From Chloroflexota bacterium (lineage in GTDB: Bacteria; Chloroflexota; UBA4733), in NCBI GenBank assembly GCA_023381895.1, contig JAMCTA010000097.1:1-34815 (forward strand): a DNA stretch of 34,815 bases, written 5' to 3'. How positions within the stretch are numbered: position 1 is the stretch's first letter; every line of letters begins with the position of its first letter. The notes under the pieces were generated by a model. That model did not search any database, had not been told where the DNA came from, and worked only from the letters and a program-made list of their open reading frames with translations. Shown one piece after another: positions 5,724 to 34,815 of the stretch. Both the position numbers and the translations under genes were made by a program.

Positions 5724-5882
5724 TGCATGCGATTCCTCTCCCGAGGCATTGTAGAACACCTTTCCACAGAGCTGCGACAAGCCTTGACGGCCGGCGATGT
5801 GTAGCGCAGAGTGTCAGCAGCTGAATCCTTGCGGCCGTCCACTCTATGCGAGCGCCGTTGAAGTTGAAGGGGGTGGAGAATA

Positions 5883-19216: not shown

Positions 19217-19245
19217 CTCTGCTGGTACCTCCTCTGCTCGGCTAC

Positions 19246-20691
19246 TCATCGTCTTGGAAGCGGCGCAGTCCACGGCAAGGGCTGTCGCTCCTGCTGGCAA
19301 CGTACTGCCTCGGCGCCGATCAGAGCATCCATCCGGGCAGAGAGCTCCTGGCAGAGTGCCTGTCGGGCTGGATCCCACGCCAGGTTGTTGAGCTCAGCCG
19401 GATCCTCCTCCATGTCGTAGAGTTCTGCTTCACCGGCCACATAGCGATTGTATTTCCAGCGACCGGTTCGCAGCATATACATCGGCCGCGACGTATCGAG
19501 GGCGAGCGCGGAGAGGATGTATTCCTTAGGTTGTCCTCCTGTGCCGCTGACCGCTCCCCAGAAGCTGCAGCCATCGAGATCGGCCGGGACGGCGGCGCCC
19601 ACTGCCTCCAACGAGGTCGGCAGCAGATCCGTAAGGTCCACGATCTCGGTCTTGTACACGCCGGCATCGATGTGTCCTGGCCAGCGCAGAATACACGGCA
19701 CCCGGCAGGACGCATCGAAGAAGGTGAACTTCGCCACGAGGCCATGGTCGTAGAGCATGTCGCCGTGATCACTCATGAAGATCACCAGCGTCTCCTCAGT
19801 GAGATGCAGCTCATCCAGCGCTGCGAGAACTTGACCAACGCAGTCGTCGACGTGGGCGACGTTGCCGCAGTAGCCGGCTACCCACTCTCGAGCCAGCGCA
19901 TCCCCCTCTGGTGTAAAGGCACTTTCGATCTCGCGGTGGCGGGCTTGTGCCGGCACTTTGCCCGGGTCATACCCCACTGGCGGCGGCGGCAGCGTGATCG
20001 ACTCGGGCGGATAACGCTCAGCGTGCCGTTGCGGCGGGGCGAAGGGGCGATGCGGCCGCAGAAAGGAGACGAACAAGAAGAAAGGCGCCTGCTCCTGCCC
20101 GGCACCGGATCCATACTGGCGGAGGAAACGAATCGCCTCCCGTGCGAAGAAGCTATCCGGGTGGTCCTCCTCTTGCAGCACTTGCGGTAACCCCGGCGCA
20201 AGCGCTGCGCCCTTCCAAGGATTCTTCCCGCCCGTATAGGTGTCCACCCACGGGACTCCACAGCCAGCATCAGTCGCTCCCATTGCCTTGCCAAACACTC
20301 CGGTCTGAGGCCCAAGGTAGTCGAAGTAATGGCCGAAGTCGACTAGCACGTCGAAGCCGTGTGTTTGAGCATCCACCGGGTGCAGCTTGCCGATCGACCC
20401 GGTCACATACCCACGGCGGGAAAACTCGTGAGCAGCCGTGCGAAACCGCAGTGGCAACGGCGTTCGGTTGGAAACACATCCGCTGCGATGCGGATAGATG
20501 CCGGTGAGGGCCGCAAAGCGAGCTGGCACGCATACTGGACTGGGGGTGTAACACTGGTTCAGCACTGTGCCCTCACGAGCCAAACGCCCGATGGAAGGAG
20601 TCTCGACGTGATACCAGCCGTCATATGATGCGAGCACCGAGCAGCTCAGCTGGTCGCACATCAACCAGAGCACATTCGGCCGTGCCGCCAT
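19246..20691 (-). CDS. Type I (Cys) sulfatase
   Basis: The 481-aa arylsulfatase-family enzyme hydrolyses a sulfate ester. The formylglycine motif is C54-V-P-A-R58 in SPVCVPARFAALTG, so it needs the FGE. Metal ligands are visible in LWLMCDQL (Asp13) and in FMSDHGDMLYDHGL; LRPHRPFAPP is a further conserved segment. The C-terminus has the usual sub-domain (RTGRWKYNRYV, ELYDMEEDPAELNNLA). No signal peptide is seen, so desulfation probably occurs in the cytoplasm after uptake. The ATG has an AAGGAGG ribosome site. It lies 106 bases downstream of the solute-binding protein and 29 bases upstream of the Thr-variant enzyme, in the leftward ROK-headed array. Confidence 0.92.
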   Translation of the reverse strand: MAARPNVLWLMCDQLSCSVLASYDGWYHVETPSIGRLAREGTVLNQCYTPSPVCVPARFAALTGIYPHRSGCVSNRTPLPLRFRTAAHEFSRRGYVTGSIGKLHPVDAQTHGFDVLVDFGHYFDYLGPQTGVFGKAMGATDAGCGVPWVDTYTGGKNPWKGAALAPGLPQVLQEEDHPDSFFAREAIRFLRQYGSGAGQEQAPFFLFVSFLRPHRPFAPPQRHAERYPPESITLPPPPVGYDPGKVPAQARHREIESAFTPEGDALAREWVAGYCGNVAHVDDCVGQVLAALDELHLTEETLVIFMSDHGDMLYDHGLVAKFTFFDASCRVPCILRWPGHIDAGVYKTEIVDLTDLLPTSLEAVGAAVPADLDGCSFWGAVSGTGGQPKEYILSALALDTSRPMYMLRTGRWKYNRYVAGEAELYDMEEDPAELNNLAWDPARQALCQELSARMDALIGAEAVRCQQERQPLPWTAPLPRR

Positions 20692-20797: not shown

Positions 20798-22264
20798 TCA
20801 GGCTGACTGTTGCTTGAGGATGGCATCGATGGCGGAGGTGAGGGAGCGAGCGACCGTCGTAGGGCTCCGCGTGCCATCCGCCAGGTACGAGGTCCATTTC
20901 GGCCAGGTCACATTGATCTGCGGCCAGACCGGCAAATAAGGTAGCGAGCGGGAGTGCTTGCGGAGAAGAGCGAGGTACTGGATGTTTTTGGGCCGGGGAA
21001 GCTCCTGCATCCACTTGAGCCAGGCCTGGTAGACGCTCCGCCGCGGCGGCAGGGCGGTATGTTCCTTCTCCAGGTAGACCGGGCCCGAGGTCATATACTT
21101 GATGAAGGACCACGCCTCTTCGGCATGCTTGGACTTCGCACTCAGCGCGATGTTATTGAAGTTGTCGTTGACGATCTCCCCTTGGGGACCTACCGGTAGG
21201 GGCGCGATGTCCCAGGCGAAGTGTACGGGGCCATAGGTGATAGCTACCTGGTGGGCCCAGTTGATAGTCATCGCCAGCCGGCCACTCGTGAATTGACCGA
21301 ACGGCGACGCTGATCCCTGAAGAGCAGGGGGAGGGCCTATCTGCTCCTTGTGCTGGAGGTCGTACAGGAACTGCAACCCTTGGACGCTCTGCGCCGTGTC
21401 CAGGAGACACTTGGTGCGCTGCGGATTGAGCAGGTGCCCACCCGCTTCCCAGAGGAAAGAGCTCCCCATCTGGATGTCGAAGGGGACGAGGAAGCCGTAC
21501 TGGCTGGGCATGCTGTTCCCACTCGCCCGCATGGTCGCCTGTCGCGCCACCGTGGCGAAGTCATTCCAGGTCCACTTGCCGGCATCGTACATCTGCGCTG
21601 GCGTCTGGTCAATCCCTGCCTTGCGGAGCGCGTCGGCGTTGTAGACGAGCACGGCGGTGGAGAGCGGACTGATGATGAGACCATACTGCTTGCCCTGCCA
21701 CTGTCCCACCACCAGGGCCTGGGGGTAGAAGTCGTGGGGCTGGACGGCTGCGGCATCGCGGTCGATGAGCGGACTCAGATCGGCCAGGGCCCCTTTGCTG
21801 GCGAGCACGGGCAAGCCGGCCGCTGGCCCCCCCAGACCGATGACATCGGGAGGCACCCCACCGGCGATCATCGTCAGCAGCTTCTCGACGTAGGAAGGAC
21901 CGGCGGGAGCGATGATCACACTCACGTGGACACCGGGATGGGCATGCTCGAACTGAGTCGCAGGTCCATAGACGGTCCGCTTGAGCTCCTGCGGGGTGAC
22001 CTGCCAGTGCATGAAGGTGATGGTGGCCGTCTTGATGCTCCGAGCCGGCTGTGATGCAGCCGCCCTGCTGCTCGCCGGTGTGGATGAAGTCGTACCGACA
22101 CTCGCCGATGTGCCTACCGCTACAGCGTGTGCCGTTGAAGCAGGAGACGTCGCTGCAACTTGGCAAGCCGTCAGCAGCGACGCCGCGATGCTGCTGCTTC
22201 CTACCTTGATCAGAAAGGCGCGCCGGGTCAAGCTCACCCTTGACGAAGAGCACGGGGATGGCAT
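20798..22264 (-). CDS. ABC sugar-type extracellular solute-binding lipoprotein (copy 1)
   Basis: The 488-aa family 1 solute-binding protein has a twin-arginine signal (Arg14-Arg15 in LTRRAFL) and a lipobox LLTAC with lipidated Cys34, followed by a long Ala/Ser/Thr linker. The mature domain starts near ATITFMHWQVTP and has the typical FEHAHPGVHVSV, GGVPPDVIGL and PLPVGPQGEIV blocks. It should be anchored outside the membrane and deliver a saccharide or derivative to an ABC importer, but no permease is adjacent. The ATG at 22264 has GAGAAGGAG upstream and decides the start over a longer frame to 22360. Its closest relative in the window is the inverted copy at 26421-27875. Confidence 0.93.
   Translation of the reverse strand: MPSPCSSSRVSLTRRAFLIKVGSSSIAASLLTACQVAATSPASTAHAVAVGTSASVGTTSSTPASSRAAASQPARSIKTATITFMHWQVTPQELKRTVYGPATQFEHAHPGVHVSVIIAPAGPSYVEKLLTMIAGGVPPDVIGLGGPAAGLPVLASKGALADLSPLIDRDAAAVQPHDFYPQALVVGQWQGKQYGLIISPLSTAVLVYNADALRKAGIDQTPAQMYDAGKWTWNDFATVARQATMRASGNSMPSQYGFLVPFDIQMGSSFLWEAGGHLLNPQRTKCLLDTAQSVQGLQFLYDLQHKEQIGPPPALQGSASPFGQFTSGRLAMTINWAHQVAITYGPVHFAWDIAPLPVGPQGEIVNDNFNNIALSAKSKHAEEAWSFIKYMTSGPVYLEKEHTALPPRRSVYQAWLKWMQELPRPKNIQYLALLRKHSRSLPYLPVWPQINVTWPKWTSYLADGTRSPTTVARSLTSAIDAILKQQSA
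20816..22264. repeat. Inverted gene duplication, left arm (SBP copy 1)
   Basis: The whole mature SBP coding region is paralogous to 26421-27857 in opposite orientation, with protein sequences by eye about three-quarters identical. The 60 bases at 20816-20875 differ from the complement of 27798-27857 at one position only, far more conserved than the rest, suggesting recent duplication or gene conversion at the 3' end. Confidence 0.85.
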
Positions 22265-22299
22265 GGCGACACTCCTTCTCCAGCCCCGTAGCCGGCACA

Positions 22300-22339
22300 G
22301 CGCGGCGTTAGCCGGCCGCGCCCGTTGCGGGGCAACGGG
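22300..22339 (-). promoter_or_regulatory. Two adjacent GC-rich hairpins upstream of SBP copy 1
   Basis: Between the isomerase stop and the SBP start are two abutting stem-loops. CCCGTTGC/GCAACGGG (22321-22339) has 8 perfect pairs and a three-base loop. GCGCGGC/GCCGCGC (22300-22321) has 7 pairs and an eight-base loop. They share one base. With no T-run they look like an intercistronic mRNA-stabilising or processing element rather than a full terminator. Confidence 0.5.
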
Positions 22340-22364
22340 TGCAGCGCCTCTGCACTTCAAAACT

Positions 22365-23204
22365 TCAAACGGCGGAAGTCTCCTCCACGACCTGCTTCAG
22401 CCAGGCGATGTGCTGAGGCAAAGCGACTTCCGGCTCGGCGAGTTCGGGATGCCACTTCTTCTCCCACTCGACACACACCCATCCTTGATATTGCCGTCGC
22501 ACGAGGCTTTGTAGCTGCTCCCGCACGGGCACTTCCCCTTCACCGAGCAAGACCAGCTGCCAGTCAGCGTTTCCCGGCGTCCGGCGTCGCGCGTCTTTCA
22601 CGTGGACGTGGACCAGACGCGGGCCGAGAGCGTCGATTACCTCCTCTGGCGTCTCTCCTACGCGATAGGGATGATGACTATCCCAGAGCGCACCAACGTA
22701 GGCTGAGGAAACCTCGCGCAAGACGATCGCCGTCCGGCGCGCCGATGAGAAGGCGTCGTGCGTTTCGAGGGCGACCGTGACGCCCACGCGTGCTGCCGCC
22801 GGTGCTGCGGCACGCAGCGCAGTCACGACCCAGCTATTGACCTCATCTTCACTGGGGACCGGCCCCTCACCTGCCTGGTTTGCCCCTCCGAAGACACGCA
22901 GGAGCGGTACTTCGACAGCGTGGGCGAGCTCGATCCAGTGCAGCAGGCTCGTCGCCTGTGCTTCCCGGTCGTGTGGCGCCCGCAGGTTGAAACGGCAAGA
23001 GGTGTCCAGGGCACAAACGCCGATTCCCCGTTGCCGGCATTGCCTCACGGCCTGCTCTACCTGCTCGCGGCCGGCTACTGGGTCGATGACGTTGCCGTTG
23101 AGCAAGCGCCACTCGATGCCGTCGTAGCCTAGGTGCGCCGCGGCATCGACAACCTGCTCGACACCCCAGGAAGGACAGGCCAGTGTACTGAAGCCAAATT
23201 TCAC
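22365..23204 (-). CDS. Sugar phosphate isomerase/epimerase (TIM barrel)
   Basis: The 279-aa xylose-isomerase-like protein begins KFGFSTLACPSWGVEQVV, then HLGYDGIEWRLL. Metal-ligand regions are VALETHDAF, GALWDSHHPYRVGE, LVHVHVKDARR and WVCVEWEKKWHPEL. It probably interconverts a keto or epimeric sugar form. The GTG start has AAAGGGG five bases upstream. It lies 77 bases downstream of the ROK regulator and 100 bases upstream of the SBP, on the same strand. It is only distantly similar to the other two isomerase-like proteins of the window. Confidence 0.88.
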   Translation of the reverse strand: MKFGFSTLACPSWGVEQVVDAAAHLGYDGIEWRLLNGNVIDPVAGREQVEQAVRQCRQRGIGVCALDTSCRFNLRAPHDREAQATSLLHWIELAHAVEVPLLRVFGGANQAGEGPVPSEDEVNSWVVTALRAAAPAAARVGVTVALETHDAFSSARRTAIVLREVSSAYVGALWDSHHPYRVGETPEEVIDALGPRLVHVHVKDARRRTPGNADWQLVLLGEGEVPVREQLQSLVRRQYQGWVCVEWEKKWHPELAEPEVALPQHIAWLKQVVEETSAV

Positions 23205-23281: not shown

Positions 23282-24502
23282 CTAGGTCACGCCCAGCAGG
23301 CGATCCAGTGCAACGGCCGCTACGCCACGCGCTGCCGCGTGGATGCCGAGCTGGGAAAATCGAATAGCCGGCACCGGACGCAGCCAGGGAAAGATATGGT
23401 GCCGCGCCACACGCTCAACGGTGGAATGCAGCAGATCGGCAGCCTCAGCGAGTGGGCCGGCGACAATCACCGCATTCGGATTCAGCACGTGAACGCAGGT
23501 CGCGATGGCGAGGCCTACGTAGCCCGCCACTTCCTCCAAGACGTCTTGACTCAAGCGGTCGCCTACCCGGGCTGCCTCGAACACCGCTGCCAGCGTCAGG
23601 TCGCTAACCTGCGACAACGGCGACAGGACGCCTGCTTGGATGCCGTCACGGATACGGCGGAGGATCGCAGGTGTACTCGCTACTGCCCACAGACACCCCT
23701 GCATGCCGCAGTGGCAGCGTGGCCCGCCGGATGAGACGACCTGCAGGTGGGCAATGCTCCCGGCCTGGTTACCGGCGCCGCTGAGGATTGCACCGTGCTC
23801 AGCGATACCCATGCCGATCCCTTCTCCCAAGTAGAGACAGAGTACGTACGTATCTTCACGTCCTGCCCCGAAGCGAACCTCTGCCAGCGTCGCTGTGTAG
23901 GCGCGCCAGTCCACGACCGCTGGCAAGCCAATCCGCGCTTCTAGCAGCGTCTGGAGCGGGACGTCGAACCAGTTTCGTGTTGTGGGCAGCCAGTCTACGA
24001 CACCCTCCGCAACGTCCACCGTTCCTGGAACGGCTATGCCAGCGGCGCGTAGCGGCGTTTCTGACTCGATGCGCTCCGCAGCGATGCGCACGGCAACGGC
24101 AAGGGCATCGGCCGTTGCCTCTGGACCGGCAGTCGCCGAGAAACCGGCCTCTACCGTTTGCAGTACGTCGCCCACCGCGTCTACCACGACTCCCCGTATG
24201 AATCCGTCATTGGTGAGCTCGAGCCCGACCACGGCAGCAAAAGTGGGATTGATCCCAACCGGCCGGCCACGCACGCGAGCCGGATCGATATCCGCTGCTT
24301 CGGCGAGCCGGCCATCAGACAACAGCCCATCGACGAGAGTACTCGTCGCAGCCTTGGACAAGCCGGTCGCCCCGGCCAGCTCGTGGCGAGGCAGCGGTCC
24401 GCGCTCCCGGAGCGTCTGGAGGATGAGCGCCCGGTTATGACGTGAGAGATCGGTAAGGATACGTCGCCTTGGGGCACTGGACCGGCGGTCCGGCTCGAAC
24501 AT
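23282..24502 (-). CDS. ROK-family transcriptional repressor (NagC/XylR type)
   Basis: The 406-aa regulator has an N-terminal winged helix (about residues 18-72: LSRHNRALILQTLRERGPL, then ELAGATGLSKAATSTLVDGLL) fused to a ROK sugar-kinase-like domain. The zinc motif C263-H-C-G-x-x-G-C270 is intact. The ATP-site motif of active kinases is not evident, as usual in regulators. It should bind a sugar or sugar phosphate that releases it from DNA. The ATG at 24502 with GGAGGG upstream is preferred over a frame extending to 24685 across the promoter. The gene is divergent from the cupin gene. The shared intergenic promoter, repeated at 34.3 kb, is its most likely target. Confidence 0.92.
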   Translation of the reverse strand: MFEPDRRSSAPRRRILTDLSRHNRALILQTLRERGPLPRHELAGATGLSKAATSTLVDGLLSDGRLAEAADIDPARVRGRPVGINPTFAAVVGLELTNDGFIRGVVVDAVGDVLQTVEAGFSATAGPEATADALAVAVRIAAERIESETPLRAAGIAVPGTVDVAEGVVDWLPTTRNWFDVPLQTLLEARIGLPAVVDWRAYTATLAEVRFGAGREDTYVLCLYLGEGIGMGIAEHGAILSGAGNQAGSIAHLQVVSSGGPRCHCGMQGCLWAVASTPAILRRIRDGIQAGVLSPLSQVSDLTLAAVFEAARVGDRLSQDVLEEVAGYVGLAIATCVHVLNPNAVIVAGPLAEAADLLHSTVERVARHHIFPWLRPVPAIRFSQLGIHAAARGVAAVALDRLLGVT

Positions 24503-24610
24503 ATCTTCCCTCCGACGCGGCGTCTGAGCCCGGGATCCATAGCCGCCTCTCGCTGAAGCGGGCAAGAGACAGATTCCCTGTGAATCCGACGTGCAATCAC
24601 AACTCAGGTT

Positions 24611-24680
24611 AGCATATATCACAAACAAAATTGGTTGACAAGTGGTAGTATTTCGGTATACTCGTTCAGAATCTATACTA
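24611..24680. promoter_or_regulatory. Divergent promoter/operator module, copy 1
   Basis: Rightward: TTGACA (24635-24640), 16 bases, TATACT (24657-24662), a near-consensus housekeeping promoter for the cupin operon. Leftward: TTGTCA (complement of 24636-24641), 17 bases, TATATG (complement of 24613-24618), for the ROK gene. The two -35 boxes overlap by five bases, so the promoters probably compete. The AT-rich ATATATCACAAACAAAATT between the leftward elements is a good candidate ROK operator. The same module recurs at 34291-34360, ungapped, with 54 of 70 bases identical by manual alignment. Confidence 0.75.
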
Positions 24681-24714
24681 GTCATCTAGAACGATAGCGT
24701 GAATTCTCGAGAGG

Positions 24715-24731
24715 AGTACGCATAGCGTACT
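24715..24731 (+). promoter_or_regulatory. Hairpin between ribosome site and cupin start codon
   Basis: AGTACGC, loop ATA, GCGTACT is a perfect 7-bp stem directly between the GAGGAG ribosome site (24711-24716, whose last two bases lie in the stem) and the GTG at 24732. Unfolded spacing is 15 bases, too long. If the stem forms, the two signals are brought together. Confidence 0.5.
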
Positions 24732-25139
24732 GTGGACACTCAGGATAGGAACAATCCCATAGAGGTGCCGGCGAGTGCTGCCGCGACTGGCGCCGTCGTA
24801 CGCCGGTTGCAGGACACGGCAGGAGTACCCTGCTCCTGCGGCACGGCGTACCGCGTCATCCGGGCGGCCAACGGTAGCCCGGCCAGCGTTCATTTTGTCG
24901 ATATCCGTATCGACTCCGACCGCCACTACCACCGCACGTTCACGGAGATCTACACCTGTCTCCAAGGAAACGGCTTCCTCGAACTCGACGGCTCGGTCGT
25001 CGCCTTGACTCCAGGAACCGTGGTCGTCATTCCGCCGGGTGTGCGTCACCGGGCCTATCCGGCCAGCTCAGACCAGACCCTCCGGATTCTGAATACGGCG
25101 GTGCCGCCGTTCGACACGACTGACGAATGGCTGGACTGA
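24732..25139 (+). CDS. Cupin-domain protein
   Basis: The 135-aa single-cupin protein has motif 1 HYHRTFTEIYTCLQGNG, containing the His-x-His and Glu metal ligands, and motif 2 GTVVVIPPGVRHRAY with the final His. Small cupins of this kind can be sugar isomerases, oxygenases or binding proteins; no specific activity can be assigned. It is the first gene of the rightward transcription unit from the divergent ROK promoter. The GTG start depends on the unusual hairpin spacing described separately. The Gfo/Idh gene follows after 24 bases. Confidence 0.85.
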   Translation: MDTQDRNNPIEVPASAAATGAVVRRLQDTAGVPCSCGTAYRVIRAANGSPASVHFVDIRIDSDRHYHRTFTEIYTCLQGNGFLELDGSVVALTPGTVVVIPPGVRHRAYPASSDQTLRILNTAVPPFDTTDEWLD

Positions 25140-25163
25140 GGCAGTATCAGAAGGAAGGGTGAG

Positions 25164-26231
25164 ATGGACCTGACTACGCTCCCGTACCAGCCAGCGTGGC
25201 CGAACCGCGAACAGTGGAAGCGCCGGCGCATCGGTCTGATCGGACCGGGCAACATCGCTCAATCGGCCCACCTACCAGCCTACCGTAAGCTCGGACTGAA
25301 CGTCGTTGCGGCCGCCGACATCAATCCGGCCGTCCTAACAGCGATGCAGCAGCGGTGGGGGGTTGAAGCGCTCTACACCGACTACCGGGAGATGCTCGAG
25401 AAAGAACGCCTGGACGTTGTCGACATCACCGTCCACGAGCGCTGGTCAGACGTGAAGGTCGAGGCCGTCCGCGCCGCTGCAGCCGCCGACACGCACATCT
25501 TGATCCAGAAGCCGCTGGCCGAGACGTATGCCCAGTGCGCTGCGATGGTCGAGGCGGCGCGGACGGCGCATGTCAAGCTTGCCGTGAATCAGAACGCCCG
25601 TTGGGCGCCCACCTTCTATGCCGCCAAGCAGTTCATCCAGGTAGGCGGCCTCGGCGAACCACGGATGCTCTCGTTGGCTGCCCGGCGGCCACCACGCGGC
25701 GGCGACGTGCTGGTCAATTTCTCTGTACATAGCATGGACCTGGTGCGCTACCTGCTGGGCGCCGCGCTGGGCCGGGAGCCCAGGCGGCTCTATGCCCTGC
25801 TCTCGGAACACGCTGACCCGAACCAGCGTTTCATCAACGTCACACTCGACTTCGGTGATGGCATCCAGGGTGCGGTGTGGGACGACTGCGCCGGCCATCT
25901 CAATACGGATATGCCGTGGGAGCTTCACGTCGCCGGAAGCGACGGCAGCGTCCGCGCCGTCGAGTATTTTGCCGGCGGGCGCGGTGCCGCCTGGATCGAA
26001 GCCTTCCATCGGGGCCAGCACCGGGTGGCGATCCGGCCACGCCTAGAAGGCGCCTGGCAGCCGGACGCCTTCGGCCACGTGATGGCCGATCTCCTCGATG
26101 CCATCGATCAAGATCGCGAGCCGTCTAGCAATGGCGATGACAATCTCCGGACGGTGCGGCTCGTCTTCGCCGCGCGTCGATCTCACTGCGACGGCCTGCC
26201 CGTTGCGCCGGAGGCCATAACTACCACCTAG
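25164..26231 (+). CDS. Gfo/Idh/MocA-family oxidoreductase
   Basis: The 355-aa NAD(P)-dependent dehydrogenase of the glucose-fructose oxidoreductase/inositol dehydrogenase family has the Rossmann motif IGLIGPGNIAQSAHLPAY and VDITVHERWS. The catalytic-lysine motif ILIQKPLAETY replaces the common EKP by QKP. The C-terminal beta-sheet domain includes FINVTLDFGDG. It probably oxidises a sugar or inositol hydroxyl. The ATG has AAGGGTGAG upstream, 24 bases after the cupin stop. It is the second gene of the rightward arm, 189 bases before SBP copy 2. Confidence 0.9.
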   Translation: MDLTTLPYQPAWPNREQWKRRRIGLIGPGNIAQSAHLPAYRKLGLNVVAAADINPAVLTAMQQRWGVEALYTDYREMLEKERLDVVDITVHERWSDVKVEAVRAAAAADTHILIQKPLAETYAQCAAMVEAARTAHVKLAVNQNARWAPTFYAAKQFIQVGGLGEPRMLSLAARRPPRGGDVLVNFSVHSMDLVRYLLGAALGREPRRLYALLSEHADPNQRFINVTLDFGDGIQGAVWDDCAGHLNTDMPWELHVAGSDGSVRAVEYFAGGRGAAWIEAFHRGQHRVAIRPRLEGAWQPDAFGHVMADLLDAIDQDREPSSNGDDNLRTVRLVFAARRSHCDGLPVAPEAITTT

Positions 26232-26420
26232 AGTGAAGCCACGATGGAACTAACATGCGCCACGCTCGGGAGCATACGAGTTCACCATAGCTCCGGTGTA
26301 GTGTCATAAGCACGGCACGTTTGTGAGAATACTGATGGTTACCACCACCACTTGCCGGCAGATCACCCCACGCCGCATCCCTCTCCAATTGGCGGCGTGA
26401 GACCCCGAAAGGAGGTGCTC

Positions 26421-27857
26421 GTGAAGACATCGTTTGACCGTGTTCCCTTCTGCTCGCGTCGCCAGTTCCTGACCGAGCTAGCCGGAAGTGCTGCGGCCCT
26501 CTCTCTCGCCGCCTGCAGGGGAGCAGCGGCTAGTGTCACAAGCACGACACAGAACAGCAGCATCGGGAAGATCGCAACGACGCCAGCACCGTCGAGCACG
26601 AGAGCAGCCACCTCAGCGACGGCATCTGCTGTCAGGGCAGGATCAGTTACCCTCACCTTCGCACGCTGGCAGGTCTCTCCGAACATCATGAAGCAACTCG
26701 TCTATGACCCGGTCGCCCACTTCGAGCATGCCCATCCCGGTGTCCACGTGAGTGTGATCACTGCTCCCGCTGGACCTTCCTATCTCGAAAAGGTGCTCAC
26801 CCTAATTGCCGGTGGGGTGCCTCCCGATGTGGTTGGGTTGCCTGGTCCGGAGGCTGTCTTACCTGTGCTCGCCAGCAAAGGTGTCCTGGCCGACCTGGGT
26901 CCGCTCATCAACCGCGATGCCGCAGCCGTCCAGCCCCACGACTTCTACCCCCAAGCCCTGGCGGTGGGCCAGTGGCAAGGCAAGCAGTACGGCCTGCTCA
27001 GCAGTACTATCTCCACCGCCGTGCTCGTCTACAATGCCGATGCGCTCCAGAAAGCTGGGGTGTCTCAGACGCCGGCCCAGCTCTACGATGCCGACAAGTG
27101 GACCTGGAACGACTTCACCCAGGTGGCACGGCAGGCGACCCTGCGTACGAGCGGCAGCAGTCTGCCCAGCCAGTACGGCTTCCTCGTCCCCTTCGACGTC
27201 CAGATGGGGAGCTCTTTCCTCTGGGAGGCGGGAGGTCATCTCCTCAACCCGCAGCGCACCAAGTGTCTCCTGGACACGGCGCAGAGCATTGCTGGACTGC
27301 AGTTTCTCTTCGACCTCCAGCACAAGGAGCAGGTCTCACCCAGCCCTTCCTTTCTCAGCACCGAATCCTCGCTCAACCTCTTCACCAGTAGCCGGCTCGG
27401 TATGACCCTCAACTGGGCCCACACGACCGTGATACAGTACGGGTCGGTGCCCTTCGCCTGGGACATCGCCCCGCTGCCCGTCGGTCCGGCCGGAGAGATC
27501 GTGAACGGTAACTTCAACAATATTGGACTCACTCAGCACTCGAAGCATCGAGAGACGGGCTGGTCCTTCATCGAGTATCTGACCTCGGGGCCAGTCTACC
27601 TAGAGAAGCAGCGCTTTGCTCTGCCGCCGCGCCGGAGTGTCTACCAGGCCTGGCTCAAGTGGGCGCAGGGCCTCCCCCACCCCAAGAATATTCAGTATCT
27701 CCAGCTACTCCGCAAGCACTCACGGGAGCTACCCTATTCCCCGGTCTGGTCACACATCAACGTGACCTGGCCGAAATGGACCTCATATCTGGCGGAGGGC
27801 ACACGGAGCCCTACGACGGTCGCTCGCTCCCTCACCTCCGCCATCGATGCCATCCTC
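26421..27857. repeat. Inverted gene duplication, right arm (SBP copy 2)
   Basis: This is the counterpart of 20816-22264 in opposite orientation. Near the 3' end, 27798-27857 matches the complement of 20816-20875 at 59 of 60 bases. The signal peptide and linker regions differ much more than the mature domains. Confidence 0.85.
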
Positions 27858-27875
27858 CAGCACGGAGCAGCGTGA
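26421..27875 (+). CDS. ABC sugar-type extracellular solute-binding lipoprotein (copy 2)
   Basis: The 484-aa family 1 solute-binding protein has a Tat motif (Arg13-Arg14 in CSRRQFL), lipobox SLAAC with lipidated Cys32, and an Ala/Ser/Thr linker to about residue 70. The mature domain closely follows copy 1: FEHAHPGVHVSV, RDAAAVQPHDFYPQAL, QYGFLVPFDVQMGSSFLW and LPPRRSVYQAWLKW are the same or nearly so. The GTG at 26421 has an AAGGAGGT ribosome site and is preferred over a frame starting at 26352. It has no adjacent permease. The following sulfatase begins 133 bases downstream, mirroring the SBP-sulfatase order on the other arm. Confidence 0.93.
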   Translation: MKTSFDRVPFCSRRQFLTELAGSAAALSLAACRGAAASVTSTTQNSSIGKIATTPAPSSTRAATSATASAVRAGSVTLTFARWQVSPNIMKQLVYDPVAHFEHAHPGVHVSVITAPAGPSYLEKVLTLIAGGVPPDVVGLPGPEAVLPVLASKGVLADLGPLINRDAAAVQPHDFYPQALAVGQWQGKQYGLLSSTISTAVLVYNADALQKAGVSQTPAQLYDADKWTWNDFTQVARQATLRTSGSSLPSQYGFLVPFDVQMGSSFLWEAGGHLLNPQRTKCLLDTAQSIAGLQFLFDLQHKEQVSPSPSFLSTESSLNLFTSSRLGMTLNWAHTTVIQYGSVPFAWDIAPLPVGPAGEIVNGNFNNIGLTQHSKHRETGWSFIEYLTSGPVYLEKQRFALPPRRSVYQAWLKWAQGLPHPKNIQYLQLLRKHSRELPYSPVWSHINVTWPKWTSYLAEGTRSPTTVARSLTSAIDAILQHGAA

Positions 27876-28008
27876 TTCAGGCGAGCGCTGTTCCGCCAGT
27901 TGCATGGGAGATGGCAAAGGAGGCACGCTGCAACGGGAGGGAAAGTATCTAGAAAAGCACAGGCGCACCAGCGGCAGGCAGGACGGTATCGAATGAAAGG
28001 ACAGGTTT

Positions 28009-29490
28009 GTGGCCTCGCGCTCTGCCACTCCACCAAACGTCTTGCTACTCATGACAGACCAGCAGCGCTGGGATACGCTCGGCTATGCTGGCTGCACCCC
28101 ATGCCGCACACCAAACTTAGACCGCCTAGCACGGGAAGGTGTCGCCTGCGACCGCTGCCTCACCCCGAATCCCATCTGCTCACCCGCGCGGGCTGCCCTA
28201 TTCACCGGCCGTTATGCCCACGCTACGGGCGTCGGCAACAATCGTGAGCTGCCGCTGGAGCAACCGACGCTATTGGAAGCCTTTCGTGACGCTGGGTATC
28301 ACATCGCCTATAGCGGTAAATGGCACCTCGGTCGCGGTCGCGGCGCTGTAGCTCTGGAGAGCTGGCTGGGCGAGCGCGGGGAGGGCTACCGCCGGTGGCT
28401 CCAGGAATGTGACCATCCCGACACCTATCCCTATATGACCCCGGAGTTCTCCTTCGTTGTGCCTGGCGACACAACCACCTCTCTTCATCGCATCTCCACG
28501 CCGCATACGGCGCCTCAGGAGGGGCTGACCGAGTGGCTGCACGATACTTGGGTCGTGCAACGGACACTAGAGCAATTAGAATGCCGGCCAAAGGAGCAAC
28601 CGTTCTTCCACGTCTGCTCGCTCATTGGACCGCACCCGATCTTCGTGATTCCAGAGCCCTTCTACTCGCTCTACGATCCGTCGGAAGTGCCAGAGCCACC
28701 GAATTTCGCCGATCCCATGACCGACAAGCCCACCTGTCAGCGACAGTCGATCTGGCATCAGGTCGCCGAGGCCCACGGCACCACCTGGGAGCCTTGGCGC
28801 CGCTCGCAGGCGGTGTACTGGGGCTTCGTCACCTTGCTCGACGAGCTGCTTGGCCGGGTGCTCAACCGGCTGGATGTACTGGGGCTGACTGAGGACACCA
28901 TCGTGGTGATGCTGAGCGATCATGGCGAGATGATGGGCGGCCACGGCCTCTTTCAGAAGTCGTGTATGTATGAGGAAAGCTTGCGGGTACCGTTCCTCGT
29001 TCGGGCACCAGGTCGCATCTCCGCAGGATGGCGCCTCGACGCGCCGATGTCGCTCGTGGACGTTGCCCCTACGTTGCTCCGGCTGGCTGGTCTCTGGGAG
29101 GAGGGAAAGGCGCTGCTGCAGCTCCAGGGACAGGACCGCGCCGGCTGGCTTACCGGTGAAGATCGCATCCCGCCCGAAGCGCGGGGCGCTACGGATGACC
29201 CGGTCGCGGGAGCAGTATTCAGCGAGTATAAGCCTTACCAAGGCGAAGGGATGACCGATGTCCGCTGCATCATCGGACCACGCTTCAAGTATGTCTGGAA
29301 TCGCGACGATCGAGAAGAGCTGTACGATACCTGGGCCGACCCTTATGAGCTGCACAACTTGGCCAGTGATCCTGCAACGCGCCCCGTACTCCTGACCATG
29401 CGACGGCGCCTCACTGGCTGGTCACGGGAAACGGGGGATCCTCTGGAGGGGATCATCCAAGGGGAGCGAGAAAGCCGCTGGTTGAGCTAG
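28009..29490 (+). CDS. Type I (Cys) sulfatase
   Basis: The 493-aa arylsulfatase-like enzyme has formylglycine motif C57-S-P-A-R61 in NPICSPARAALFTG, so it should be activated by FGE. N-terminal VLLLMTDQQRWD gives metal ligands. SGKWHLG is the conserved Lys/His segment, and VMLSDHGEMMGGHGL supplies the second Asp/His pair. The C-terminal domain ends with FKYVWN and YDTWADPYELHNLA, typical of the family. The GTG start has AAAGGA seven bases upstream. It lacks a signal peptide. It is the last recognised gene of the rightward cupin arm and converges with the Gfo/Idh gene at 29650. Confidence 0.92.
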   Translation: MASRSATPPNVLLLMTDQQRWDTLGYAGCTPCRTPNLDRLAREGVACDRCLTPNPICSPARAALFTGRYAHATGVGNNRELPLEQPTLLEAFRDAGYHIAYSGKWHLGRGRGAVALESWLGERGEGYRRWLQECDHPDTYPYMTPEFSFVVPGDTTTSLHRISTPHTAPQEGLTEWLHDTWVVQRTLEQLECRPKEQPFFHVCSLIGPHPIFVIPEPFYSLYDPSEVPEPPNFADPMTDKPTCQRQSIWHQVAEAHGTTWEPWRRSQAVYWGFVTLLDELLGRVLNRLDVLGLTEDTIVVMLSDHGEMMGGHGLFQKSCMYEESLRVPFLVRAPGRISAGWRLDAPMSLVDVAPTLLRLAGLWEEGKALLQLQGQDRAGWLTGEDRIPPEARGATDDPVAGAVFSEYKPYQGEGMTDVRCIIGPRFKYVWNRDDREELYDTWADPYELHNLASDPATRPVLLTMRRRLTGWSRETGDPLEGIIQGERESRWLS

Positions 29491-29649
29491 TTTGAGCTAC
29501 CTGCTCTCCGCCGAGATTGCCGTCGTGAGGGGCCATCGTAGCGACCTATCGCTGGTGTTCCCGCAGCGCTAGCCGTGCCGGTGCTCATCAGCTTCTAAGA
29601 GGTGACGTCAGGCAGGGATACATCGCCCGTTCTGTGAGAATTCGTCGCT

Positions 29650-30849
29650 TCAGGCGATGTGCCAGTGTTGATCGATGGGGGCTTGATACGTCGCCACCTT
29701 GCCGTCGAGTACGTCTTGCACGCGGACGACCTGGTTCGTCGCAGCCGATTCGTAGATGGCACAGGCGATGGCCTTGGCATGCAAACCCTGTTCGCCGTCG
29801 ATTTCCGGCGGTCGCTGATCGCGGATGCTGTGGAGGAAGTCGCAGGTCTCGAGAGCGAAGCCGTTGGTGAGGCCATAGGGGAAGAGGCGGTCGCGCTCAT
29901 TGTTTCCCATCTCCGCGAGGTACTGCTCGTAGAGCTCGGCCAGAGGATATGCAGTCCCATCGAGGCGCTTGAGCGTGGCGGTCAGGCGCGGTCCGTGGAA
30001 GGGGTCGCCTGGATCGTTGATGGCACCCTCGCTGCCGTAGTACATGACGGTGTTGAATGTATCGGCTAGGGGACGGTTGATCACCGTCCAGGTACCTGTG
30101 ACACCACTCTTGAAGTTGAGCAGCGCCGTGAACGTGTCCTCACGCATGTCCGGCACGTGGTCCTCTCCCTTGACAAACGTGCCCTCGGCGTACTTGCGCA
30201 CACTGCCATACACACTCTCGCAGTCTCCCCACAGGTAGCGCATCGTGTCGCAGAAGTGTGCCCCGCTGTCGAGGACGGGACCGCCCCCGGAAAGGAGACG
30301 ATCGAAGCGCCACGCCCACGGCGTGGTTGCTGCCGTACGACGATCCAGTGTCCGCTGCACGAAAAAGACCTGCGGCGTGCCGATCATACCCTTGCGATGC
30401 ACGGCCCAATGCACGGTTCGTGGTCCCGGCATGCGCCGGATCTGCTCGGCAGTTGCGAAGATAACTCCTGTGCGCCTGCTCGTTGCTATCAGCTGTTTCG
30501 TCGCCTTGATCGACACGCCGATCGGCTTTTCTATCTGTATGTGGAGCCCCGCTTCCATACAGGCAATACCAGCAGTGTGATGCAGGAAATGGGGGAGGCA
30601 GATATCGACAGCATCCACACCACCGGCTTGGAGCAATGCCGCCCAATCGGTGTAGACTCGTGGCCGGTCCTGCTCCCAAGCAGCGGCACTTTCTGCGACG
30701 GCCTCCGCTCGTTCGGGAGCAGCATCACAGACGGCAGCGAGGGTAAACAAGCTTGGGTCCTGCTCTTTGATGAACCGATAGCCGGTGAGGTGTTGCTTGG
30801 TGGCAATGCCGCCACAGCCGATGAGCGCAAGCCGGATAGGTCGAGTCAT
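29650..30849 (-). CDS. Gfo/Idh/MocA-family oxidoreductase
   Basis: The 399-aa NAD(P)-dependent sugar/inositol dehydrogenase-like protein has the nucleotide motif LALIGCGGIATKQHL, VDAVDICLPHFLH, and the canonical catalytic IEKPIGVS. GGGPVLDSGAHFCDTM is the family GGG..D.G.H segment. The ATG at 30849, preceded by AAGGGAAG, is chosen over an in-frame start at 30888. It is the last gene of the leftward permease-permease-SBP-oxidoreductase operon, 50 bases after the SBP, so it probably oxidises the imported sugar or derivative. It is similar in fold but not close in sequence to the Gfo/Idh protein at 25164. Confidence 0.9.
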   Translation of the reverse strand: MTRPIRLALIGCGGIATKQHLTGYRFIKEQDPSLFTLAAVCDAAPERAEAVAESAAAWEQDRPRVYTDWAALLQAGGVDAVDICLPHFLHHTAGIACMEAGLHIQIEKPIGVSIKATKQLIATSRRTGVIFATAEQIRRMPGPRTVHWAVHRKGMIGTPQVFFVQRTLDRRTAATTPWAWRFDRLLSGGGPVLDSGAHFCDTMRYLWGDCESVYGSVRKYAEGTFVKGEDHVPDMREDTFTALLNFKSGVTGTWTVINRPLADTFNTVMYYGSEGAINDPGDPFHGPRLTATLKRLDGTAYPLAELYEQYLAEMGNNERDRLFPYGLTNGFALETCDFLHSIRDQRPPEIDGEQGLHAKAIACAIYESAATNQVVRVQDVLDGKVATYQAPIDQHWHIA

Positions 30850-30899
30850 AGGATCTTCCCTTCCCTTTCTTGTCACGGTGCCAGACATAGCAGCCTCAC

Positions 30900-32309
30900 C
30901 TAGCGGTGATTGGTGTAGGCCTGGTCAAGTACGTTTTGGATAGCTTGGTTCGCCGCAGTCAACGCTTGCTGGACCGATTCCTTGTGGTAGAAGATCTGCT
31001 GCCAGGCTTGGGTGAGCTGATCCCAGGCCTCTTGCGCTGCCGGGCTGATGGGCCGCACCCGCGTGTACTGCATGGCTTTCAACGCGTACTGTTCGGCCGT
31101 ATCGACTGCTGGAATACCGGTCTTGAACTTAGCGATCAGTATCTTATCAAGTGCGGGCTGTCCGCTCCACTGCACCGAGTATCCCTGACCGGCTTTGGCA
31201 TTGAAGGTCTGCTGCGCCTCCTGCCCGGCCACGATGCTCTCCTTGCTGATCAGCGCGCGCATCAGTTGCCACGACGCATCGGGGTGCTTACTCTTTGCGG
31301 GCGTCGTCCAGGCAAAGCCGCCAGAGAACGTCATGGGCTTCTGCCCCGCCTTCGGGACAGGAAACATCGCGTAGCCGAAGTTCATATGGGGCTTGTACTG
31401 CGCAATCGTCCCCAGTTCGAAGCCGTAGACCATCACCTGCTGACCGGCGATGAAAGGATCGTTCGTCTTCGTCTGGAAGGAAGCGGTGAAGGCGGCGATC
31501 TTCTGCGCCCCGCCCATGGCATCCACGATGTCAAGGATCGCCTGCACCCCGTCGACTACCTCGGGGCTATTCATTGTGGACTTGCGACCATTGTCGGCGA
31601 GAAAATGCCCACCATACTCCCAGCCGAACTGATAGAGTACTCCAACGCCCGGAAGATTATAGTTCCAGCCGAGTTGCGTGAGTTTCCCATTCGTCGATTT
31701 CGTCAGATGCACCGCGTACTGCTGTAAGTCGGCATAGGTCACCGGCCCCTTGTTCGGATCGAGCCCGGCGCTCGTGAACGCATCCTTGTTCCAGAACATG
31801 ATGCGGTCGTCGGTGGAGTTGGGCAGCCCGTACAGCTTCTTGTCAACGCCGTAGGCCTCCTTGAGAATCTCCGGGTAGAAGCGCTTCAGATCGTACTTGT
31901 CGACATCTACGTAGTGGTCGATCGGCGACAGGGCGCCGCGAAACGCTAAACTCGCCAGTTGAAAGCGGTCGATATAGACGACGTCCGCTGCCGTCCCGGC
32001 TGCTTCTGCCGTGAGGAACTTCTGCAGCTCCGTCGATCCGGTGACTCCACCCGGCTGAGGAGCGGCGGTTACCGGCATCGTCGGGTGCTGCTGGTTCCAG
32101 AGGGTCGCCTGGGCCTGGAGCCCAGTGATGGCGGTGCCGCCCCAGACCGTCAACTTGAGCGGCGCCTTGCTCGGCGACTGGGCTGTCGCCGCACCCGCCG
32201 TGGCGGACACCTGCTGAGCGCAGGCTGCCAGCACCCCAGCCAGCACCAGACCAGACCCGATCCCGGCGGCCTCGCGAAGCACCTGCCGCCGCGCGACTCG
32301 TGTACCCAT
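30900..32309 (-). CDS. ABC sugar-type extracellular solute-binding lipoprotein (third, unrelated to copies 1 and 2)
   Basis: The 469-aa family 1 solute-binding protein has a Tat-type signal (Arg7-Arg8 in ARRQVL) and lipobox VLAAC with lipidated Cys30. The mature part begins LKLTVWGG and contains GTAADVVYIDRFQLASLA, YGLPNSTDDRIMFWNKDAF, then GVLYQFGWEYGGHFL and MTFSGGFAW. It presents a saccharide-type ligand to the adjacent permeases. Its ATG has AAGGAGGT upstream, 36 bases after the second permease gene. It is clearly different from the duplicated SBPs, so its ligand probably differs. Confidence 0.93.
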   Translation of the reverse strand: MGTRVARRQVLREAAGIGSGLVLAGVLAACAQQVSATAGAATAQSPSKAPLKLTVWGGTAITGLQAQATLWNQQHPTMPVTAAPQPGGVTGSTELQKFLTAEAAGTAADVVYIDRFQLASLAFRGALSPIDHYVDVDKYDLKRFYPEILKEAYGVDKKLYGLPNSTDDRIMFWNKDAFTSAGLDPNKGPVTYADLQQYAVHLTKSTNGKLTQLGWNYNLPGVGVLYQFGWEYGGHFLADNGRKSTMNSPEVVDGVQAILDIVDAMGGAQKIAAFTASFQTKTNDPFIAGQQVMVYGFELGTIAQYKPHMNFGYAMFPVPKAGQKPMTFSGGFAWTTPAKSKHPDASWQLMRALISKESIVAGQEAQQTFNAKAGQGYSVQWSGQPALDKILIAKFKTGIPAVDTAEQYALKAMQYTRVRPISPAAQEAWDQLTQAWQQIFYHKESVQQALTAANQAIQNVLDQAYTNHR

Positions 32310-32345
32310 CGCTCTTACCTCCTTAAATGCTCAACACCCCCGGGG

Positions 32346-33227
32346 CTAGCCCTTGAGCCCCGTCAAGGTGATCCCCTGGATGAAATAGCGCTGCGTAAAG
32401 AAAAAGACCGCGATCACCGGTATCGTCATCAAGGTCGATGCTGCCATGAGCAGATTCCAGTAGGACGCATTCTCTTGTAAGAAGACGTAGAGGCCCAGCG
32501 AGAGTGGCTTGAGGCTGTTGGAGTTCAGATAGATGAGCGGGTTGATGAAGTCATTCCACACCCCCTGAAAGTTGAAGATCGCGACCGCGGCGAGCGCTGG
32601 GCGGGAGAGGGGTAACGCGATGTGGCGATAGACCCCGGCAAAGCTTGCCCCATCGATGCGTGCCGCATCTTCCAGTTCTCGCGGCAAACTGGCGAAAAAC
32701 TGACGGAGGAGGAAGATGAAGAAAGGCGCCCCGAGAAAGGCCGGGACTGTCAACGGCAGGAACGTATTGACCCAGCCAAGCGCATGAAAGATCAGGAAGC
32801 GCGGCACCATGGTGACCTCGGCCGGCACCATCAGAGTGGCGAGGAGAACAAGAAAGAAGAAATTCCGTCCTGGCCAGCGCAGTCGTGCAAAGGCATAAGC
32901 CGCAAGCGAACAGGACAGCAGCGTCCCCATCAGGTTGATGACTACCAGAATGACGCTATTCTTGACATACCCGAGGAGGTTTCCGAACAGGAGCGCGTAT
33001 GGATAGTTTGCCCAATCCAGCGGCCAGAAGAAGAGTTGGGGCGTCGTGGTCATGAGCTGGTCGTTGAACTTGAGCGAGGTGGAGACCATCCAGATAAAAG
33101 GCAGCAGAAAGAGCAAGCCGCCGAGGAGCAGGACCGCATGGAGGACGCCACGACGCAACATCTGACCTAGATGGCGCGGTAGTTGGGCGCCTGTCCCCGG
33201 TTGGCGCAGCCGGTAGGCACGGCTCAT
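32346..33227 (-). CDS. ABC sugar permease, MalG/UgpE type
   Basis: The 293-aa inner-membrane subunit of a CUT1-type carbohydrate importer has six predicted membrane segments. The cytoplasmic EAA loop appears as ELEDAARIDGASFAGVYRHI, ALPLSRPAL, which contacts the ATPase. The C-terminus (FTQRYFIQGITLTGLKG) is a family hallmark of the second permease. Its start codon overlaps the stop of the upstream permease by four bases (ATGA), indicating translational coupling. No ATP-binding subunit is encoded nearby; CUT1 systems often share one encoded elsewhere. Confidence 0.94.
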   Translation of the reverse strand: MSRAYRLRQPGTGAQLPRHLGQMLRRGVLHAVLLLGGLLFLLPFIWMVSTSLKFNDQLMTTTPQLFFWPLDWANYPYALLFGNLLGYVKNSVILVVINLMGTLLSCSLAAYAFARLRWPGRNFFFLVLLATLMVPAEVTMVPRFLIFHALGWVNTFLPLTVPAFLGAPFFIFLLRQFFASLPRELEDAARIDGASFAGVYRHIALPLSRPALAAVAIFNFQGVWNDFINPLIYLNSNSLKPLSLGLYVFLQENASYWNLLMAASTLMTIPVIAVFFFTQRYFIQGITLTGLKG

Positions 33228-34189
33228 CGCTTAATATCCCCTTCGTAGTGCACCCACCTTGGCGCGCCGTACAACTGCACCGCGGTCAGCAGCAGGATGA
33301 GCAAGAAGAGAAGCCAGGCGATCGCCGATGCGTACCCCATCTTAAAGTAGGCGAAGGCGTTATTGAACAGGTAGTAGACCACAAACAGGGTCGAATTGAC
33401 CGGGCCGCCTTGCGTCATAATGTAGGACTGGGCGAAGATCTGCAAGGTATGAATCGTACCGATGATGACGGTGAAGAAGAGCGTGGGCGTCATCATCGGG
33501 AACGTGACCGACCAAAATCGCCACCACCAACCGGCGCCATCGATCTGGGCCGCCTCGTACAGATGCGCCGGCACGCCCTGGAGACCAGCGAGATAGATGA
33601 CCATCGTGGCGCCCGTGCTGAACATCCCCATCAGCACCATGCCCGGTTTGGCCCAAGTCGGACTGACGAGCCAGGCCGGTCCGGCGATATGCACCACGGC
33701 AAGGAGCGCATTGACCAGGCCGAGACTCGGATTCAGCAGCCAGAGCCAGAGCACCGCATTCGCCACGCCAGGGACAATGGCCGGCATATAGAACATCGTG
33801 CGATAGAACTGCATGCCGCGTACGGCACGATTCAACAGCAGGGCCAGCCCGAACGCGGTTATGATGTTCAACGGCAAGCCAACCACGACCATAAACAAGG
33901 TATTGGCAAGCGCTGTGAAGAGCAGCGGATCGTGCAGAAGCTGCACATAGTTCCCCACACCGACCCACTGTGCCGGCTGCAGGACGTTGTAGCGCGTGAA
34001 GCTCAGGTAGAGTGAGGCGAGAATCGGGCCGGCGGTAAAGGCGACGAGACCCACCAGCCAGGGGAGGATGAAGAGATATCCCGTCACCCGCTCGTTGTCG
34101 AAAAGCCGGGCAAGAGCAGCAGGCTGGCAACGATTAGCCAGCGCTAGGACGCTCACCGTCCAATCGACTCGGCGCACGTGACTTTTCAC
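33224..34189 (-). CDS. ABC sugar permease, MalF/UgpA type
   Basis: The 321-aa inner-membrane subunit is partner of the downstream MalG-type permease. Six membrane segments begin with GYLFILPWLVGLVAF. The EAA loop reads HLYEAAQIDGAGWWWRFWSV followed by TFPMMTP. GGPVNSTLFVVYYLF is the typical segment near the end. I chose the GTG at 34189 (GAGAGGA eight bases upstream) over an in-frame ATG at 34267, which has no ribosome site and would add 26 hydrophilic residues. It heads the leftward transport operon, about 100 bases downstream of the leftward promoter of module copy 2. Confidence 0.93.
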   Translation of the reverse strand: MKSHVRRVDWTVSVLALANRCQPAALARLFDNERVTGYLFILPWLVGLVAFTAGPILASLYLSFTRYNVLQPAQWVGVGNYVQLLHDPLLFTALANTLFMVVVGLPLNIITAFGLALLLNRAVRGMQFYRTMFYMPAIVPGVANAVLWLWLLNPSLGLVNALLAVVHIAGPAWLVSPTWAKPGMVLMGMFSTGATMVIYLAGLQGVPAHLYEAAQIDGAGWWWRFWSVTFPMMTPTLFFTVIIGTIHTLQIFAQSYIMTQGGPVNSTLFVVYYLFNNAFAYFKMGYASAIAWLLFLLILLLTAVQLYGAPRWVHYEGDIKR

Positions 34190-34290
34190 TGGCCGTGTCC
34201 TCTCCGTGGCGTTGGAAAATGCAGTCGTGTCGTAGCCCACCGGACCGGAGTCAAGCGACCTACCCATCTATGGAGCTACAGCTCAGATCA

Positions 34291-34360
34291 AGTATATATC
34301 ATAAACAAGATTAGGCGACAGGTAGCAGTATCCTGGCATACTCGTTCACAATCTCTCCTA
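34291..34360. promoter_or_regulatory. Divergent promoter/operator module, copy 2
   Basis: This is the same layout as the module at 24611-24680. Leftward: CTGTCG (complement of 34316-34321), 17 bases, TATATA (complement of 34293-34298), for the permease operon. Rightward: GCGACA (34315-34320), 16 bases, CATACT (34337-34342), for the choline-sulfatase-like gene. Compared with copy 1 the leftward -10 is nearer consensus and the rightward promoter is weaker, suggesting different basal strengths. The core ATATATCATAAACAAGATT corresponds to the presumed ROK operator. The remaining 160 bases up to 34523 show no further gene that I can support. Confidence 0.75.
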
Positions 34361-34523
34361 ATTTTCTTATCGACAAGCGGAAATCCTGAGGGGTACTCTT
34401 GCCTATTTGATTATTGTATGATCGCCTTATGGAGCGTCAAGTGGTATCTGTTGGTCCCACGGCCGGCCGGCGCGCCTGCTTGACTCTGGGAATCGTGGCA
34501 TGAAGTGATGGGATAGACCTCGC

Positions 34524-34815
34524 GTGATAAGCGACCGACCAAACATTCTTTTGGTGATGGTGGACCAGCTCGCCGCGTGCTGGACGGGGCCGTATGGTGA
34601 GCGGGTAGCGAGCACACCAAACCTGGATCGCCTTGCCGGGCAGGGGATCACGTTCGAGCAGATGTACTGCAACGCTCCGATCTGCGTCGCCAGCCGGGCG
34701 AGCATGATGGCTGGTCGCTACATCAGTGCGGTGCGCGCCTACGACAACGGGTCGGAGTTCCCAGCCAGCCGGCCCACGTTCTGTCACTACCTGCGACTGG
34801 CTGGCTACCGGACCA
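34524..34815 (+). CDS. Choline-sulfatase-like type I sulfatase (partial)
   Basis: Only the first 97 codons lie in the window. NILLVMVDQLAACWTGPYG carries the first metal aspartate. The formylglycine motif is C54-V-A-S-R58 in YCNAPICVASRASMMAGR, with Ala instead of the usual Pro at the third position; CxAxR is an accepted sulfatase variant. The following AYDNGSEFPAS and PTFCHYLRLAGYRT closely resemble BetC choline sulfatases (choline O-sulfate to choline and sulfate). The specificity is not proven from this fragment. The GTG start has a weak ribosome site. It is transcribed rightward from promoter module copy 2. Confidence 0.85.
   Translation, partial: MISDRPNILLVMVDQLAACWTGPYGERVASTPNLDRLAGQGITFEQMYCNAPICVASRASMMAGRYISAVRAYDNGSEFPASRPTFCHYLRLAGYRT

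Follow-up and report, generated by a model that had tools for sequence, protein, structure and literature searches.

Two intergenic sequences in a 34,815-nucleotide stretch of a Chloroflexota bacterium (contig JAMCTA010000097.1; the whole of this stretch is called the window below) are, by sequence, paralogues that go back to a single divergent promoter/operator segment about 130 bp long. Copy 1 lies between the gene of a ROK-family regulator and a cupin operon, and copy 2 lies between an ATP-binding cassette (ABC) transporter operon and a sulfatase gene. The simplest reading of this arrangement is a shared cis-regulatory segment placed before four putative transcription units. The ROK protein is the best candidate for the regulator of the duplicated segment, at about even odds, on the basis of its adjacency, its family and the gene content of the two loci.

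Extent of the duplicated segment

Aligned without gaps, the cores of copy 1 (24611–24680) and copy 2 (34291–34360) are identical at 54 of 70 positions, exactly as an earlier note on this DNA had reported, and the best match anywhere else in the window, both strands considered, is 35/70. A direct-repeat search of the window returned three repeats, the longest of which is this pair (77 nt at 75%). When the window was compared with itself using BLAST, 24599–24680 matched 34278–34360 with an E value of 7e-9, ranking second behind a pair of genes for substrate-binding proteins (SBPs). Gapped local alignment with stringent scoring stretches the homology, with small gaps, to 24599–24729 and 34278–34405, which we take as the full extents of copies 1 and 2. 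The extension to the right scores above all of 300 shuffles, unlike that to the left, which is matched or beaten by 47 of 300. The right-hand end of the homology enters the cupin leader and proceeds as far as the cupin ribosome-binding region, so that copy 2 would be a duplicated divergent intergenic segment and more than an isolated operator. The earlier proposal that conservation between the two places is confined to a non-coding module of about 70 bp stands in that no coding sequence is shared, but the unit has to be enlarged to about 130 bp with the cupin leader included.

A homology that runs into the cupin leader and its ribosome-binding region could also reflect a conserved leader RNA and not control at the level of DNA. 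We find this hardly credible: the window has no Rfam match, the fold of the cupin leader is no better than those of shuffled sequences (z = 0.46), the covariation term for three sequences is unfavourable (+0.46) even though four of 38 predicted pairs show two-sided change, and conservation is strongest upstream of the predicted start.

By eye, a perfect inverted repeat, AGTACGC-ATA-GCGTACT, is seen at 24715–24731 between the cupin ribosome-binding sequence and the GTG start codon. It forms a hairpin in the centroid fold and is absent from copy 2; one arm base is changed in the nearest genome searched, a Chloroflexi metagenome-assembled genome that is 66% complete (contig JAMCRV010000007.1; G001 in the following).

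Predicted promoters and conserved blocks

Copy 1 carries a rightward sigma-70-type promoter, TTGACA-16-TATACT (24635–24662, + strand), that was found by a consensus scan with 11 of 12 positions matching, points towards the cupin operon and has hexamers identical in G001. A leftward promoter-like sequence towards the ROK gene, TTGTCA-17-TATATG (24613–24641, − strand; 9/12, 5 + 4), is recovered by simple matching and missed by the stricter scan. Its −35 box overlaps that of the rightward promoter. The G001 version of copy 1 has comparable sites (11/12 and 9/12). The copy-2 equivalent of the rightward promoter, GCGACA-16-CATACT (34315–34342, + strand), is weak; it was located through the alignment, matches the consensus at 8/12 positions by eye (4 + 4) and is missed by the scan.

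Two blocks are better kept between the copies than the −35 box (4/6) and the spacer (10/16) elsewhere in the core. The left block, ATATATCAyAAACAArATT, to which the earlier note had drawn attention, is indeed present in both copies (24614–24632 and 34294–34312) and is identical at 17/19 positions. The right block, ATACTCGTTCAsAATCT (24658–24674 and 34338–34354), is identical at 16/17 positions and lies over the −10 box and the start. Both are candidate operators, picked post hoc after inspection of the alignment.

The repeat AGTAT-N6-ATACT (24647–24662 and 34327–34342, found by eye) has arms that are identical in both copies and in G001 and a spacer that differs between the copies (also by eye). 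It is attractive as a candidate operator, but 70 bp of sequence can readily contain arms of only five bases by chance, and it was set aside. So were single-block sites in other parts of the window, their best scores being no higher than the random-sequence range.

The ROK regulator

The first gene leftward of copy 1 (23282–24499, − strand) directly adjoins it in divergent orientation and encodes a protein of 405 residues. Its ROK domain scores 138.3 bits against a cut-off of 22.9 (PF00480, E = 4.9e-40), and the protein aligns with Mlc and Lmo0178 over nearly its whole length, the N-terminal part included. The N-terminal winged helix-turn-helix gives 23.1 bits with the MarR profile, just below the cut-off of 24.6, and is covered by the alignments, which start at residue 18 for Mlc and at residue 21 for Lmo0178. 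The translation also contains CHCGMQGC, aligned with CHCGQKGC of Lmo0178; both match CxCGxxGC, which we take to be the zinc motif of ROK-family repressors. With the ROK domain, the helix-turn-helix and the zinc motif all present, the predicted protein is a member of this repressor family. The NCBIfam models for NagC, Mlc and ROK glucokinase match below their cut-offs, and we therefore class the regulator as ROK only and assign no ligand. Pfam scans of 19 window proteins revealed no DNA-binding regulator besides this one. A protein search with the ROK sequence gave, among 22 listed of 7995 scored candidates, homologues that are 74–80% identical and lie on short contigs (P0002–P0004), and just one of 400 genomes of the phylum, G001, has a ROK match at E 1e-70.

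Gene content of the two loci

Operon limits are predicted from gene orientation and spacing. Leftward of copy 1 (− strand), the ROK gene is followed by genes for a xylose-isomerase-like TIM barrel (22365–23204; AP_endonuc_2 in Pfam), a first ABC substrate-binding protein (SBP1, 20798–22360; Pfam), a sulfatase (19246–20691; PF00884) and a sulfatase-family protein (17867–19378; PF00884). Rightward (+ strand) come a cupin (24732–25139; PF07883 and AraC_binding, PF02311), a Gfo/Idh/MocA oxidoreductase (25164–26231; PF01408), SBP2 (26352–27875; PF01547) and a sulfatase (28009–29490; PF00884). Leftward of copy 2 (− strand), the first gene encodes an ABC permease with an uncertain start codon (33224–34267; PF00528) and is followed by a second permease (32346–33227; PF00528), SBP3 (30900–32309; PF01547) and another Gfo/Idh/MocA oxidoreductase (29650–30888; PF01408). 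The first gene rightward of copy 2, for a sulfatase (34524–34815, + strand), runs off the window; over the first 97 residues its product fits choline-sulfatase and arylsulfatase models, with scores below their full-length cut-offs. The same sequence is thus found before each of the four predicted units, as expected of a regulon.

SBP1 and SBP2 are an inverted pair of paralogues (20811–22024 and 26649–27862, 80% nucleotide identity), one in each of the operons that diverge from copy 1. Across both loci, the scanned genes include three for substrate-binding proteins and one pair of permease genes. This sole pair sits behind copy 2, and no permease gene lies beside SBP1 or SBP2. SBP1 and SBP2 would therefore plausibly need the copy-2 operon, and this split across the loci is the main functional argument for common control. 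Most simply, the gene sets around the two copies would serve a sulfated substrate under one control.

In the mechanism that we propose, the segment would have arisen in the ROK/cupin divergon and been duplicated to a place before the transporter operon, or the copying would have gone the other way. The ROK repressor would occupy the conserved blocks in the region of the −10 and spacer elements and silence both directions of each copy, and the repression would be lifted by a ligand, perhaps a sugar that the sulfatases release. One switch would then operate the ROK–TIM barrel–SBP1–sulfatase, cupin–Gfo/Idh–SBP2–sulfatase and permease–SBP3–Gfo/Idh units together with the sulfatase at 34.5 kb. That both gene sets are under such a switch, with the adjacent ROK repressor acting on the conserved blocks, is the likeliest of the readings compared here and could in our judgement as well be right as wrong. 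A further step is more tentative and rather doubtful: the regulon may have been enlarged by copying of the whole divergent segment, with its leader and ribosome-binding region, before the transporter operon, and not through new sites that evolved singly. In copy 2, selection would since have preserved the operator blocks and let the promoter hexamers weaken.

The sulfatase-family protein at 17867–19378 has PTHPGHTT before MLTG and is without the cysteine of C-x-P/A-x-R, presumably the sulfatase cysteine motif, that the three remaining sulfatases of these loci possess. A formylglycine-generating-type protein is encoded at 4737–5780.

Alternative readings

Several results weigh against a common switch operated by the ROK protein. 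They concern the promoters of copy 2, the lack of a shared palindrome, the distribution of the module among relatives and the marginal statistics for constraint.

Inside copy 2 the consensus scan finds no promoter, and simple matching gives weak hexamers, the best two listed sites on each strand matching at 8/12. Opposite promoters with overlapping −35 boxes, claimed earlier for both copies, are therefore borne out in copy 1 (11/12 and 9/12) and have no clear counterpart in copy 2. That promoter strengths are tuned differently in the two copies is speculation, although the copy-2 hexamers do look weakened. Just outside copy 2 the scan places a leftward promoter-like site, TTGACG-16-TACAAT (34440–34413), with 0.4 expected in shuffles. 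It would read through copy 2 towards the permease operon.

No ROK-type inverted repeat (of the TTTGTTC-N-GAACAAA kind) common to both copies was found. The generic pattern, modelled on the RokB site TTTGTTC-N11-GAACAAA as given in the accessible part of PMC4856308, reaches 11/14 at best in copy 1 and 10/14, at a different place, in copy 2; among the sites listed for the window, 26 score 11 and three score 12. A dyad across the whole module was dropped: 35/70 positions agree between the core and its reverse complement, with the centre alike in both copies, and 771 of 2000 column permutations were as good. The earlier claim of four transcription units under one regulator keeps the shared segment before all four and the lack of recognisable scattered copies in the genomes searched, but is left without a common ROK-like inverted repeat.

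With no such palindrome in common, the shared segment could be read by a regulator other than the ROK protein, be it a repressor, an activator or a special sigma factor, whose gene would lie elsewhere, and the retention of both blocks in copy 2 beside weak −35 and −10 hexamers could fit an activator-dependent promoter. We regard this as unlikely. The ROK gene directly adjoins copy 1, and in Thermotoga maritima all of the sugar-responsive regulators studied, several of them ROK proteins, are encoded within the loci that they regulate, according to the accessible part of PMC3750489.

The distribution of the module was followed in the nearest relatives. G001 is about 95% identical to the window over most of 1973–24994 (20 kb compared), with breaks near 12.4–13.5 and 16.1–17.8 kb, and carries copy 1 at 96% at a contig end. 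Its copy-2 region was not found, the completeness being 66% for G001 as against 57% and 81% for two further genomes, G002 and G003. Genes that resemble SBP1/SBP2 and the sulfatase gene at 28009, as paralogues or orthologues, are present in the latter two genomes without the module (SBP 78% in L088, sulfatase 77% in L090). G003, which belongs to the same family, also has counterparts of the Gfo/Idh gene at 29650 and of the sulfatase gene at 34524 with 75–76% DNA identity; neither the module nor a close ROK protein was found in it (matches 32–36% identical), and this joint absence counts in favour of the ROK reading. On contig JACQGX010000392.1 (L045), a 53%-identical ROK relative, matched by tblastn only over residues 15–197, lies beside a matching Gfo/Idh gene, an apparent substrate-binding gene and an apparent cupin remnant (the last two by eye). 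Despite this similar neighbourhood, no module is recognisable on L045.

Two stretches of the window, 12380–13303 and about 16.1–17.8 kb, have no like match in the compared 20 kb of G001, so that gene content would differ between the two strains there. On L045, several near-copies of a CTAGTGTAGCGAACA-like word were seen by eye at 3900–4060, upstream of the ROK relative, and are possibly an operator there. The word was not used further, as a pattern search of G401 gave ten matches against 20 for the reversed control.

The earlier note had named the same sequence scattered at unrelated loci, for example as a transposable repeat, as a finding that would refute its regulon. The segment might be a mobile promoter element, or a repeat of dispersed kind, and occur twice in the window by chance; regulatory regions that spread before other genes are described in work cited in the accessible part of PMC9944727. 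No such scatter and no third copy were recognised in G001 (66% complete), in 61 relatives queried with copy 1 or in 400 genomes of the phylum queried with copy 2. BLAST of G001 with the module returns copy 1 and one 14-nt match only. Ten of the 61 genomes match copy 1 at E 1, all but G001 by 15–26 nt and with E at least 0.037. At E 0.01, copy 2 finds a match in two of the 400, namely G001 and G016; the one in G016 (28 nt, 89%, E = 7e-4) is inside a coding frame and was taken as chance. Degenerate patterns of the blocks were run with up to three mismatches against G001, G002, G003 and G401: the left one matches once, at copy 1 of G001 (control 0), and the right one 11 times (control nine), mismatch-free only at copy 1 of G001. 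There is also no match to the module among plasmid records, nor in one exact-pattern scan of viral contigs. A mobile element should have left several further copies, and these are not seen in G001 or the other genomes; we thus consider this explanation very improbable and, within the genomes searched, the dispersed-repeat reading appears largely refuted.

Within the core, 3/70 positions distinguish the copy 1 found in G001 from that of the window, and 15/70 distinguish it from copy 2, from which we infer that the duplication predates the separation of the two strains. The 3/70 core differences compare with 122 of 1256 fourfold sites (9.7%) between the window and G001, with a p value of 0.08 that is suggestive only. 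This fourfold count is a hand sum over seven genes (ROK, the TIM barrel at 22365, the sulfatase at 19246, the genes at 13808, 9070 and 9860 and the N-terminal part of the cupin); three of the ten attempted were excluded, those at 20798 (13 residues aligned), 17867 (50 residues) and 12380 (no match). When the two copies are aligned, the core shows 16 mismatches (12 of them transitions) beside its 54 matches and is free of gaps, compared with 40 matches, 16 mismatches and seven gap columns in the attached flanks; here too p = 0.09 is suggestive only. The strain and copy comparisons both point, weakly, to selection on the core.

Copy 2 may be an old, partly drifting duplicate. It would then be a relic of an intergenic duplication that took place as a paralogue-rich cluster was rearranged, and the transporter operon would be driven from elsewhere, for example from the site at 34440–34413. 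The weak promoters of copy 2 and the promoter-like site outside it fit such a relic, as does the further duplication that gave SBP1 and SBP2: at fourfold sites these two genes have diverged by 35% (68 of 194), so that, if the two events are of like age, a 23% difference between the copies can be explained without strong constraint. We nevertheless think it improbable that copy 2 is a relic. Its core is gap-free while the flanks are not (at the marginal significance given above), it is placed exactly between two divergent first genes, and no decayed gene was detected in 34001–34815 with the cupin and ROK proteins as queries (best E = 0.2).

Comparison with known systems

If the common control of the two loci by the ROK protein is correct, they are a small, testable case of a regulon that grew when its entire divergent control region was duplicated, and a regulator is assigned to a Chloroflexi-type cluster of sulfatases and an ABC transporter. 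If it is not, the loci are an ordinary local regulon or contain an old duplicate. Nothing on this locus was found in the literature as far as the sources were accessible.

The proposed arrangement resembles those of XylR and ManR of T. maritima, in which a ROK regulator lies in its own locus and several operons per carbohydrate are controlled, ABC transporters among them (PMC3750489, accessible part). The XylR and ManR regulons derive from 11 genomes with sites tested in vitro, whereas the two sites described here, with no recognised palindrome, are predicted from sequence. Sulfatases are prominent in our gene set, unlike in those of XylR and ManR.

RokB of Streptomyces coelicolor is likewise a ROK regulator with sites (predicted in our case) in the bidirectional promoter of its own gene. 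Unlike the gene set described here, the targets of RokB suggest amino acid metabolism. The accessible part of the same report (PMC4856308) describes a centre motif TVCVT and genomic RokB sites without a perfect inverted repeat; because of the latter, the missing palindrome does not exclude a ROK operator in the present segment.

An intergenic regulatory segment also comes to lie before unrelated genes in promoter propagation and in horizontal regulatory transfer (Matus-Garcia 2012 and Oren 2014, as cited in the accessible part of PMC9944727). Here, in contrast, there are two copies only, with cores that are 77% identical, less than 10 kb apart and before gene sets of like function, which makes local duplication likelier than spread. 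Most simply, the arrangement would be an ordinary local regulon with one twist, namely that the whole divergent segment has been copied.

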